In this document: positions 2,543-10,110 of the stretch, piece after piece | Numbering within the stretch: the stretch's first letter is position 1 | Layout of the letters: every line of letters starts with the position of its first letter | Made by a program: the position numbers and the translations under genes | Assembly (NCBI GenBank): GCA_003557545.1 | Contig: PWOD01000060.1 | Coordinates: forward strand, 1 to 10,110 | From: a bacterium | Lineage (GTDB): Bacteria > T1Sed10-126 | Direction: 5' to 3' | Length of the DNA stretch: 10,110 nt | The notes under the pieces: model-generated | What the model saw: the letters and a program-made list of their open reading frames with translations, nothing else | What the model was told of the DNA's origin: nothing | Databases searched by the model: none

Positions 2543-4096
2543 TTAACGGGATATATGAGCTGTCTTTATAATCTTCATCTCACGAATTGCATTGACCTTG
2601 ATCTCACCACTATAGGTGAGATTTTCCTCAATATCATGGGCAATTTCACGGGCCAACCCGGCCAGGTCAGCATCCGATATTTTACGATAATCAACCCAGA
2701 TCCGCAGCTCTCGACCGGCACTCATTGCATAGACTTTCCGAACCCCGGGCCGGTTACTGGCCAGTTTTCTCAGGTTGGCTATCCGCTCTGAATAATTAGT
2801 AACATTCTCTTTCCGGGCACCGGGACGGCTGCCTGAAATAGCATCGGCTGTGGCCACAATAATACTCTCCACAGCTGACGGTTCATGATCGCCATGATGA
2901 CTTTTCAAAGCGTTAATAACCGTCTCAGATTCGCCAAACTCCTCGGCGATTTCACCGCTTATTTCAGCGTGTCCACTTTCCCGCTGCCGGTCTACCGCTT
3001 TGCCAATATCATGCAGCAGTCCGGCACGACGGGCCAGATCGGCGTCCGCACCGATTTCAGCGGCGATCAACGAACTGAGCCGGGAAACCTCCATACTATG
3101 AATAATCTGGGGTTGACCATAAGAGGTTCTAAACTGTAAAATACCGAGCAGCTCAACAATTTCATCCGGAACCTTTGAGACACGGCAGCTGCGCAGGGCT
3201 TGGCGGGCGGCATCAAACTGATCCTGCCGAACCCGGCTGCGATATTTTTTAACCCCACTTTGCACGAGATCAAAGTTAAATTTTTTCTGCTGAACAATAT
3301 TATTCATGGTCCGGTAGGCTATCTCTTTTTGCACCGGCTCCATATTCTCAATCACAGCCAGCTGCTTGTCCGGCTCAAACCGAATACTGGAGTCGATAGT
3401 TTCAATCAACCGTTCACCATGCTTTTCATAAAAATCCTGCAGCCGGTCATAGGCATCCTGGTCGGGAAACTTGAGCGCGGCACTGGACACATCGGCCGGG
3501 GTGGGAATATCACAACGTGAAATAATTCTACCATGAAACCGACGGGCCAGACGGCCGGCATGGTTCTTAATAAATTTTTGATGACTCTTACAATGTTTCA
3601 TTATGCGCATCTCACTGTTAGTCACCAGATCATTTTTCAACCGCTGCAGAACAGCCTGCCGCTCCTCACCTGATTTTTTTTGCAGCCCCTCGACGATCTG
3701 CCGCTGACGATCCTTTAGTTGCTCATCTAACCGGGCCATCTGCTCTTCCATCTGATCCACAGAGCTCTGCTGTTTATCCATTAGTTTTTTTCGACCGGTC
3801 AGCCGTTCACCCATACTTTCCAGTCGTGTTTCCAGATGATTTACCTGTTTTTTCCGGGAGGCAATCTGTTTCTCCAGCAGCTCACGATGGCGGACCAGAC
3901 TCTCAGAAAAACGCTCAATCTCACCCTGGATCTGCTCTCCATCAATCTCCTCACGAGCTCGCTGCAAAATCTCTCCCGCTCGGATTTTTGCCTGTTTAAG
4001 AAGCCAGAAACTCCGTACCTTATGCAGCAGAAATCCTGCCAGAAAGGCTGCCGGCCCCAGAATTAGCAGTAAAAGGCTCAGATCTAATGTTTCCAT
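2543..4096 (-). CDS. rny: RNase Y-family protein (membrane anchor, coiled coil, degenerate KH, HD phosphohydrolase)
   Basis: RNase Y is a membrane-anchored endoribonuclease that starts mRNA decay. The protein has 517 aa, close to the usual ~520. It shows an N-terminal membrane segment (about residues 6-25), a long charged coiled coil (about 30-150), a KH-like region (about 200-270) and an HD domain (about 325-420) followed by the conserved tail (to GEIKVNAIRE). Metal/catalytic residues are all visible: His333, His362-Asp363 in GLLHDIGKA, His376, His400-His401 in SHHGD, and Asp418 in ATADAI. The KH GxxG loop, normally GREG, reads about YEKHGE here, so RNA binding may be altered. Start ATG 4096 lies 32 nt after the YtxH stop; the binding site is weak (GGGG about 15 nt upstream), suggesting translation within a shared transcript. 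It may be a paralogue of a standard RNase Y encoded elsewhere, so the symbol marks the family only. Confidence 0.87.
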   Translation of the reverse strand: METLDLSLLLLILGPAAFLAGFLLHKVRSFWLLKQAKIRAGEILQRAREEIDGEQIQGEIERFSESLVRHRELLEKQIASRKKQVNHLETRLESMGERLTGRKKLMDKQQSSVDQMEEQMARLDEQLKDRQRQIVEGLQKKSGEERQAVLQRLKNDLVTNSEMRIMKHCKSHQKFIKNHAGRLARRFHGRIISRCDIPTPADVSSAALKFPDQDAYDRLQDFYEKHGERLIETIDSSIRFEPDKQLAVIENMEPVQKEIAYRTMNNIVQQKKFNFDLVQSGVKKYRSRVRQDQFDAARQALRSCRVSKVPDEIVELLGILQFRTSYGQPQIIHSMEVSRLSSLIAAEIGADADLARRAGLLHDIGKAVDRQRESGHAEISGEIAEEFGESETVINALKSHHGDHEPSAVESIIVATADAISGSRPGARKENVTNYSERIANLRKLASNRPGVRKVYAMSAGRELRIWVDYRKISDADLAGLAREIAHDIEENLTYSGEIKVNAIREMKIIKTAHISR

Positions 4097-6611: not shown

Positions 6612-6660
6612 AATAAAAAAAGCAAGGAGGACTGACCACATCTAAGCGGTCAATCCTCCT
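6612..6660 (-). terminator. Rho-independent terminator after the paralogue 3 gene
   Basis: Arms AGGAGGA-C-TGACC (6625-6637) and GGTCA-A-TCCTCCT (6648-6660): 12 pairs with one mismatch and a 10-nt loop. Read on the minus strand the stem is followed by TTGCTTTTTTTATTT, a clear U-tract. It lies 98 nt after the stop codon. Confidence 0.85.
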
Positions 6661-6694
6661 CACTGTGGGTGGAACATTTATTCAACTATCTGTA

Positions 6695-6758: not shown

Positions 6759-7907
6759 TTAGAAGCGAATCGAAACCTCGCCAACAACACCGTCAAACTC
6801 TGTCAGATCTTCACCGCGAATTAGATCATAGAAGGCGAATACATCGTCATCCACATCCTGGGTGACATATTCCAGCTTGGCAATAACATTCTGTCCGAGC
6901 TCATGGCCAAATCCAACCTGCAGACGATCAACATCTCCCGAACTTTGAGTGGCCTCATCAGGATCAATCGTCATATCGGTATAGCGCAGAGCAAACCAGC
7001 TGCGAGGAGTAAAATCATAGCGGGCCTCAAAGGTCATATAATCGACCTCGAACTCCTCATAGATACCAGAAGCAAGAGGAACTCCAGGTGCATTAACATC
7101 CAGAGTCCCATAGTTCAGGTAGAGCCCTATGGGCAGGCCGGTCAGCGGTAAGAAATCATAGCTCAGATCAAGCTGCAGAGCATCCACTTCATGGCCACTC
7201 AGATCAGGAGCTGTATGAGCTCCAGCCACCGAGTAAACCTCGCGGGCAAACCGGTTAAACCCAAAGTTAGACTCCAGAATATCATCTGGAATATCCGGTT
7301 CGCTGTGACTTACCGTGTGGTATGAAAGGGCGCCGGTCAGACCGGGAAGAAACTCACCGGTAAACTGAATGTTCAGGGCAAGGTCCCGCTCATCACTGAA
7401 ATCTGAACCTTCCAGACCATTGGTCACGGCGACACTCCAGCCATAATCAAGATACTGTCCATAAAACTCAAGTCCGGTCTGGGAACCCACCAGGTCCACC
7501 AGCGAGTTACCGACAAGACTGTTGGACTGAACATCAGCGTTATTGGAACTGCGTCCACGCTGCTGCCCGTAATTAAGCTGAAACCGGCCAATCCTTGCAT
7601 TAACAGGAAAGATACCAATAGTAAACAGCTCATCATGACTCATATATGCTTGATAAACATCGATCTCCTGGTCACCGGCGGTGGAGGTCAAAAGTTCAAC
7701 ATAACCGTCAACATCGGGATTAACCGAGCCGGAAACCTTGAGGTTGAACAGCGCTTCGTTAAACCCCATCTCCTGACTTAAATCATTCTCTACATCCTGG
7801 AAATGGGTTGCCATCTCAGCCTCCAGCTGAATCTCAGCGGCGGCGGGAACAGCCAGCACCACGGCCAGGGTAAATACTGCAATAAAAATAACAGATAGAT
7901 CTCTCAT
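6759..7907 (-). CDS. Outer-membrane porin-like beta-barrel protein (paralogue 3 of the tandem array)
   Basis: 382 aa from ATG 7907. The start is fixed by AAGGAGG 9 nt upstream and by the signal peptide MRDLSVIFIA...PAAAEI (cleavage near residue 24). The open frame runs back to 8066, but that part is regulatory leader. Strand pattern and terminal EVSIRF mark a BAM-dependent barrel. Family motifs: IGRFQLNYGQQRGRS (106-120), DVQSNSLVGNSLVD (125-138), SQTGLEFYGQY (142-152), LQLDLSYD (244-251), LYLNYG (262-267), DRLQVGFGHE (328-337), AKLEYVTQDVDDD (343-355). Acidic turns at 315-327 and 350-355 resemble Ca-binding loops, but no complete EF-hand-like motif is present here. Substrate unknown. It has its own promoter and long leader, and two consecutive hairpins follow the TAA stop, so it is probably a separate transcription unit. 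Confidence 0.7.
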   Translation of the reverse strand: MRDLSVIFIAVFTLAVVLAVPAAAEIQLEAEMATHFQDVENDLSQEMGFNEALFNLKVSGSVNPDVDGYVELLTSTAGDQEIDVYQAYMSHDELFTIGIFPVNARIGRFQLNYGQQRGRSSNNADVQSNSLVGNSLVDLVGSQTGLEFYGQYLDYGWSVAVTNGLEGSDFSDERDLALNIQFTGEFLPGLTGALSYHTVSHSEPDIPDDILESNFGFNRFAREVYSVAGAHTAPDLSGHEVDALQLDLSYDFLPLTGLPIGLYLNYGTLDVNAPGVPLASGIYEEFEVDYMTFEARYDFTPRSWFALRYTDMTIDPDEATQSSGDVDRLQVGFGHELGQNVIAKLEYVTQDVDDDVFAFYDLIRGEDLTEFDGVVGEVSIRF

Positions 7908-8141
7908 AAATACATTCCTCCTTGTTAATCTAAACTTCAAACAGGTAAACTTGCCTGAAGCCTTGTCCCACTGCCATCCAACACCCACAGCACGACTTGC
8001 CGGTCCAGCCGGCAGGTTCGCTCGCGGAGGAATGATTTCACCACCTTTCTGCCTGGTTTTTGGCATCTGGCAGGGAACATCTTGCTTCGCATTATTAGAT
8101 TTAAAAGATTACAGCTAGCTTAATTAAAAATGATTCCTCCA
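7908..8141 (-). promoter_or_regulatory. Long structured 5' leader with alternative pairings of the ribosome binding site (riboswitch-like candidate)
   Basis: The binding site GGAGGAATG (minus strand, 7921-7913) has a perfect 9-base complement CATTCCTCC at 8034-8026. A second GGAGGAAT at 8140-8133 can pair with the same complement (8 bp, one mismatch, then 4 more pairs: 8128-8140 with 8026-8038). The two pairings exclude each other. Between complement and binding site lie a hairpin TGCCGG-N5-CCGGCA (7998-8014) and an imperfect hairpin (7935-7960), as in a branched aptamer. Upstream, CTGCC/GGCAG forms another small stem. I recognise no known riboswitch consensus. The open frame across this leader (to 8066) has no binding site of its own. 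Confidence 0.5.
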
Positions 8142-8194: not shown

Positions 8195-8259
8195 AAACTT
8201 TTTTCCGCCGACCCCAATTTCATGGCCAGCCAAAAACAACCACCACCCATAATCAGATT

Positions 8260-8290
8260 ATTATATATTACAGGCGTCGGAGATTGTCAA
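8260..8290 (-). promoter_or_regulatory. Near-consensus sigma-70-type promoter for paralogue 3
   Basis: Minus strand TTGACA (8285-8290, perfect -35), then TATATA at 17 nt (8262-8267) or perfect TATAAT at 19 nt (8260-8265). Predicted start near 8253, so the leader to ATG 7907 would be about 345 nt. A 9-bp repeat TTTTCCGCC occurs at 8294-8302, 3 bp upstream of the -35 box, and at 8201-8209. Confidence 0.6.
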
Positions 8291-9735: not shown

Positions 9736-10110
9736 TTAAAAACTGATCGACAACTCGGCGGCCACACCGTCAAAGCTCGGATCATCGTCCGGGTCCTGGC
9801 TAACATATTCCAGTTTTACCAGGGTATTGGGAGCCAGCTGGTGACCCAGGCCGATCTGCAGCCGGTCCACCTTGTGGCCACCAACATCATCTTCCTCGAT
9901 ATCAGCCTGGCTGAAGCGGGCGGCCAGGTAGCTGACCGGCGTCAGATTGTACCGGGCTTCAACCGTAAAATAATCAACGGCAACATCGTCCGGCAACGGC
10001 GGCGGTGGTGTTAAACCACGTATATCAGTAACATCAGTAAACTCCAGCTGACCGTAGTTGAAATAAAGTTCGGCGGGCCAGCCCAACGCCAGCGAAAGAT
10101 CATAGGTCAG
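9736..10110 (-). CDS. Outer-membrane porin-like beta-barrel protein (paralogue 1, C-terminal part only)
   Basis: The last 124 residues of a barrel protein whose start lies beyond the right edge. The frame is open to the edge and begins LTYDLSLALGWPAELYFNYG, which aligns with LTYDLGLGG...LELYLNYG in the next gene; the TTG at 10086 is therefore internal, not a start. Further motifs: VDYFTVEARYNLTPVSYLAARFSQ, an acidic turn DIEEDD, HKVDRLQIGLGHQ, LVKLEYVSQDPDDD, and the end AELSISF. The C-terminal Phe and strand pattern support an outer-membrane barrel. A turn containing PPPPLPDD is peculiar to this copy. The stop is TAA, followed 10 bases later by a GC-rich hairpin. Confidence 0.68.
   Translation of the reverse strand: MTYDLSLALGWPAELYFNYGQLEFTDVTDIRGLTPPPPLPDDVAVDYFTVEARYNLTPVSYLAARFSQADIEEDDVGGHKVDRLQIGLGHQLAPNTLVKLEYVSQDPDDDPSFDGVAAELSISF

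Follow-up and report, generated by a model that had tools for sequence, protein, structure and literature searches.

The window, by which we mean the whole stretch of 10,110 nucleotides analysed here, is contig C78 from a genome that totals 2.15 Mb over 239 contigs. By the kinship label of G001, a related MAG, this genome belongs to T1Sed10-126, which is listed as a phylum lacking cultured members (PMC12942990, a source that also reports two MAGs from Odiel saltmarsh soils); sample codes of the T1Sed10 form are used in a study of hypersaline soda lake sediments from the Kulunda Steppe (PMC6146748). On its minus strand, the window encodes a Porin_4 protein of 382 amino acids, here called porin B (6759–7907, start codon 7907–7905), which matches PF13609 above the cut-off (E = 7e-7). 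The end of the window (9901–10110) overlaps a second contig of the same genome, C1 (L032 1–204), over about 205 bases at 96.7% identity, the difference being essentially one 6-base indel, and because the contig ends overlap, C1 can be placed just upstream of the window on the minus strand. The assembly break falls at this 6-base indel within a porin gene, and the porin array therefore comprises at least four genes, in the order leader 1 (in C1), porin 0, porin A, leader 2 (the leader studied here), porin B, a terminator and porin C. An RNase Y-like protein (RNase_Y_N plus HD domain) is encoded near the array at 2543–4096, also on the minus strand.

Homologous leaders and their promoters

A DNA search with the leader across 98 genomes matched only leader 1 and one leader in G001, a MAG assigned by its kinship label to another genus of the same family and phylum. 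Covariance models of the full leader and of its domain, run on up to 386 genomes, recovered the same three leaders only, and the block complementary to the ribosome binding site gave exactly these three leader matches in the two genomes. All three leaders precede porins, which share only 41–55% identity. The DNA and covariance searches, in up to 386 genomes, yielded no credible copy outside the T1Sed10-126 lineage. Scanning a genome contig collection for the patterns of the element returned 14 stretches, among which only the already-known G001 contig was real; a viral contig collection held no match to the patterns, and a porin protein search of the genome contig collection gave no confirmed relative. 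Three other covariance matches were rejected: that in G006 (L038) lies opposite a terminator-like hairpin, with no gene start downstream, that in G252 is weak with a broken P1 helix (described below), and that in G211 lies within an acyltransferase-like gene and resembles the core through the encoded peptide GGENIPPKG.

The whole window had no Rfam match at the gathering score, and at E values up to 10 the leader gave only caiA, a chance sRNA hit on the binding-site stretch (18.1 bits, where 55.5 are needed). The earlier impression that no known riboswitch consensus fits was thus borne out, the leader standing outside every Rfam family, and by the collections searched here its RNA would count as a new family.

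In the window, a promoter-like site on the minus strand (8260–8290) consists of TTGACA (8290–8285) followed by TATATA (8267–8262, spacing 17) or TATAAT (8265–8260, spacing 19), which predicts a transcript start near 8254, upstream of all three segments considered below. Its counterparts are TTGACT-17-TATAAT in the C1 leader and TTGACATTTGGGTGAAAATGTAATATATATT in G001. The best promoter-like sites, similar in form (TTGAC...TGTAATATA), lie about 340, 565 and 420–547 nt before the binding site, and because they are far upstream in each leader, a leader that includes the whole domain is favoured.

A conserved segment complementary to the binding site

The original prediction had placed one word twice on the minus strand with its exact complement in between, and these positions are confirmed: GGAGGAAT occurs at 8140–8133 and 7921–7914, and the complement ATTCCTCC at 8033–8026. 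The downstream copy contains the ribosome binding site of porin B (GGAGG, 7921–7917), which together with the next bases reads GGAGGAATG (7913–7921); the anti-binding-site segment CATTCCTCC (8026–8034, minus strand) is complementary to 7921–7913. The nine perfect pairs claimed for complement and binding site are present and are followed by five more past a 2x2 loop (-17.3 kcal/mol), and the helix is kept in all three homologous leaders, with CATTCCTCC and the 12-mer AAGGAGGAATGT identical despite diverged surroundings. Only three copies of AAGGAGGAATGT exist in the 2.15 Mb genome, two of them at porin starts and the third being the upstream copy in C1, while porins A and C, which lack the leader, carry other sequences after GGAGG. 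Because both words are invariant amid diverged surroundings and AAGGAGGAATGT is rare, we judge on sequence grounds that the pairing exceeds chance.

The hiding helix never varies, and covariation therefore lends it no support. Nor did the three-leader comparison show any both-sided change in hairpins 1 and 2 of the predicted off fold, which were rejected as the conserved structure. The hiding helix is 9–10 bp long and perfect, with G–C pairs, which makes an RNA thermometer unlikely for this leader.

The upstream copy of the binding-site word

The upstream copy GGAGGAAT (8133–8140, minus strand) had been proposed as a third segment, which captures the complement in the on state, the complement otherwise capturing the binding site (off). 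Its complementarity to that segment is real, with 8 + 5 pairs flanking one mismatch (the original count was 8 + 4; -15.2 kcal/mol), but it is not conserved: the copy occurs in the window and, as the full identical 12-mer AAGGAGGAATGT, in C1, and is absent from G001, whose leader keeps both the binding site and the complement. The pattern named as refuting the original prediction, a homologous leader that retains the binding site without another segment, thus applies to the upstream copy but not to the complement. Dinucleotide shuffles gave an equally good duplex in 40/1000 cases for the window, 7/1000 for C1 and 394/1000 for G001; relative to chance, the pairing is marginal in the window, better in C1 and no better than chance in G001.

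Presence of the copy in both leaders of this genome speaks for the three-part arrangement, as does its pairing with the complement in nascent transcripts, which in the window and C1 has a probability of about 1 up to some 40 nt past the complement and could be a transient folding step. However, this probability is 0.07 (window) and 0.30 (C1) at +70, 0.0003 and 0.005 in long transcripts, and 0 throughout in G001; the upstream copy would lose the complement when P1 can form. The distances from copy to complement also differ (107 versus about 159 nt), with intervening sequence that is not alignable. We therefore consider the three-part arrangement improbable: the upstream copy is not a conserved switch arm, and may be a folding intermediate, a CsrA site or a relic.

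Control by CsrA through the AAGGAGG words of the binding site and of the upstream copy appears just as improbable. A csrA gene was found in both genomes, a hairpin loop of C1 presents the upstream copy as C-AAGGAG-G in the manner typical of CsrA sites, and the window binding site reads CAAGGAGG; yet AGGA occurs in any strong binding site, G001 has no upstream site and that of the window is unstructured, such that an upstream hairpin-loop site exists in C1 only, and CsrA would leave the conserved domain described next unexplained.

Leader 1 carries a GTG 9 nt after the GGAGG of its upstream copy (AAGGAGGAATGT), and with it a 30-codon frame (L032 1212–1111, minus strand) that stops just before the RNA domain. 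A leader peptide was rejected, as this frame after the upstream copy occurs solely in C1.

A covarying domain around the complementary segment

The three leaders share a compact RNA domain (about 8079–7964, minus strand) made of a 12-bp long-range helix, P1, and two short helices, P2 and P3. The 5' arm of P1 (TGTTCCCTGCCA, 8068–8079) pairs with its 3' arm (TGGCAGTGGGACA, 7964–7976) around a bulged U (7970). The 5' arm of P2, CCA (8061–8063; CCC in the relatives), pairs with 7980–7978, an A–U pair of the window being C–G in both other leaders, and is directly followed by an invariant AAAA loop (8060–8057). The 5' arm of P3, CCAGGC (8051–8056), pairs with 7991–7989 and 7987–7985, and its top pair is C–G in the window versus U–A in the other two leaders. 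Beyond it lies the apical segment RGAAAGGUGGUGA (8038–8050), with one variable base across the three leaders, and the 3' side of P3 and P2 (GCTGTGGGTGTTGG, 7978–7991) is also complementary to a conserved block downstream of the porin. In the consensus fold, P1 has 12 bp, P2 has 3 bp (CCM:KGG), a 4x4 internal loop contains the invariant AAAA, and P3 has 6 bp with one bulge; the core consensus is approximately UUCNCUGYC-N4-GCC-MAAAACCAGGYRGAAAGGUGGUGA-N2-3-CAUUCCUCC. Between the domain and the binding site, a linker hairpin of 10–12 bp (approximately 7932–7963, minus strand) is predicted in all three leaders, with both arms differing in sequence in C1; as no T run follows it, transcription attenuation is not suggested.

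In a plain MAFFT alignment of the three sequences, 6 of the 21 pairs in P1–P3 are altered on both sides, compared to a mean of 2.4 after shuffling the 3' letters (six was reached in 2/500 shuffles), and with a model-fitted alignment none of 500 shuffles was as good as the observed covariation. P1 shows four both-sided changes in either alignment, or five when one bulge is placed by hand, in which case 35 of its 36 cells are paired. Over P1–P3 as a whole, 93.7% of cells are paired, whereas slid partners reach 27–44% with 0–1 both-sided pairs, and the alifold energy (z = -3.7) beats all 500 column shuffles. Additionally, 41 of the 59 core columns are invariant, while the 150 nt upstream are at background identity (42–45%). 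Compensatory changes in homologous leaders, which had been named as a check on the prediction, were found, although in P1–P3 and not in the helices then proposed. Only two genomes contributed to the set, and two of its three sequences are paralogs, so that the covariation rests on few events; structural support for P1–P3 from these alignments appears good but not final.

A coding origin of the core was rejected, since the frame from 8066 enters the porin in the window only, and in C1 the core has a 1-nt deletion and lacks the start codon there. The window frame (8066–6759, minus strand, 435 aa) begins within the RNA domain in frame with the porin, and a gene caller could wrongly set the porin start at 8066.

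A non-regulatory explanation would invoke recent paralogy, a strong binding site and a chance complement. Two of the three leaders share one porin array, and some leader similarity is therefore inherited; conservation of the core between genera, however, exceeds that of the coding sequence, and P1–P3 show both-sided changes; we hold this explanation to be very improbable, slightly more so than the three-part arrangement or CsrA.

Folding of the leader and a proposed switch

The folding energy of the whole leader is ordinary (z = -1.0). When each leader is folded under a nested model, two forms compete, one with the complement on the binding site and one with P1. In both leaders of this genome, the probability of P1 is 0.95–1.0 before the binding site is made and 0.14–0.33 after, with the hiding helix at 0.66–0.85 once the binding site is made, and both leaders would thus be bistable under this model. 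In G001, P1 stays at 1.0 with a 150-nt lead-in, and the hiding helix ranges from 0 to 0.26 by the length folded; bistability varies with folded length, the hiding helix of the window ranging from 0.03 to 0.66.

It is the P1–P3 domain that is conserved as an alternative to the off stem, and the exact three-part mechanism is unsupported. Because CATTCCTCC lies inside the domain, we infer that the likely switch is between the folded domain and the complement on the binding site. The leader (about 8254–7908) would act as a conserved, uncatalogued cis-regulatory RNA of the porin mRNA, in which the domain closed by P1 and continued by P2 and P3 (8079–7964) would store CATTCCTCC (8034–8026) in its upper part. 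While the domain is folded, CATTCCTCC would be retained within it and the ribosome binding site would be free; once the domain opens, CATTCCTCC would pair with GGAGGAATG (7921–7913), and the resulting multi-branched stem, near the start codon, would hide the binding site and so stop translation. In a variant of this scheme, P1–P3 would be kept and the helix between segment and binding site would be a pseudoknot, making the folded domain the off form; P1–P3 and the hiding helix cross, and a pseudoknot with both is therefore possible, beyond the scoring of the programs.

We regard it as fairly probable that this is a conserved cis-regulatory leader in which a domain-stored segment frees or hides the porin binding site, in either variant, and the leader probably turns porin translation on and off in this way. 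The general idea of a hidden or free binding site thereby survives in a conserved structured leader with a real anti-binding-site segment, but the upstream copy is not the partner of the on state. Candidate signals would be a metabolite or ion, temperature, a protein such as CsrA, or a partner RNA.

A candidate partner RNA downstream of porin B

A candidate for such a partner lies downstream of porin B (6614–6672, minus strand) and consists of a conserved block, CCACCCACAGTGAGGAGG (6672–6655), a terminator hairpin (about 6664–6621) and a T run. The block is identical in both genera and occurs once per genome, allowing up to three mismatches, only downstream of the leader-bearing porin; in G001 it lies at L033 6923–6906 (minus strand), where a terminator also follows. 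Conservation around the block ends within a few bases. Within the terminator stem, the 5' half (AGTGAGGAGG) is invariant while its 3' counterpart varies, which would fit a further pairing role of the 5' half. Just after porin B and before the block lies a second hairpin, AAAACTACT...AGTAGTTTT (about 6728–6690, minus strand), possibly a first terminator or a processing site.

In leader 1, TCACTGTGGGT is reverse-complementary to ACCCACAGTGA over 11 nt. The longest exact complements of the block (C1, 11 nt; G001, 10 nt; window, 9 nt) fall at one homologous site of the domain in all three leaders, and shuffled seeds were as good in only 5/2000 (C1), 1/2000 (G001) and 42/2000 (window) cases. Together with the restriction of the block to leader-bearing porins, this is consistent with a partner RNA made from CCACCCACAGTGAGGAGG and the terminator, either an independent small RNA or the 3' end of the porin mRNA itself, that would pair with CTGTGGGT...GGA of the domain and tip the switch. 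However, the complementarity was noticed after the fact, the seed lies partly within the terminator stem, co-folding favours other contacts, a clear promoter for a separate RNA was not seen by eye and neither genome has an Hfq match, and we offer the partner RNA as a doubtful, tentative reading.

Discussion

In cells with an outer membrane, porin expression governs what gets in, and it is set by two-component systems and small RNAs; we know of no riboswitch class for porins. A conserved RNA domain able to hide a porin binding site in a hypersaline lineage would provide a concrete element for salt, ion or osmolyte sensing, or for pairing with a partner RNA. Speculatively, and with no more confidence than we place in the partner RNA, the leader could represent an RNA switch of a new class, serving outer-membrane porins in a salt-lake phylum that is uncultured: the anti-binding-site strand would be kept in a covarying domain, and the switch would be set by a conserved partner RNA made at the end of that porin's own gene, or else by an ion or osmolyte.

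With the SAM-II and preQ1-II riboswitches, the leader shares a compact domain with conserved unpaired loops between covarying helices and an anti-binding-site segment inside; unlike them, it has no Rfam match, and the gene it would regulate is a porin. With the ompA 5' UTR thermosensor it shares an outer-membrane protein gene and a binding site that can be hidden in a stem. Most RNA thermometers are simple, imperfect hairpins whose sequence is little conserved, whereas the perfect 9–10 bp helix of this leader encloses about 100 nt, and its conserved multi-helix domain covaries. As for MicF, MicC and OmrA/B, the putative target of the candidate partner RNA is a porin mRNA leader, and the C-rich conserved seed before the terminator downstream of the porin, which complements the leader, recalls the pairing between the 5' and 3' UTRs of icaR mRNA. 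In contrast to all of these, no Hfq was found, and the putative target is a structured domain about 70–80 nt upstream of the binding site.
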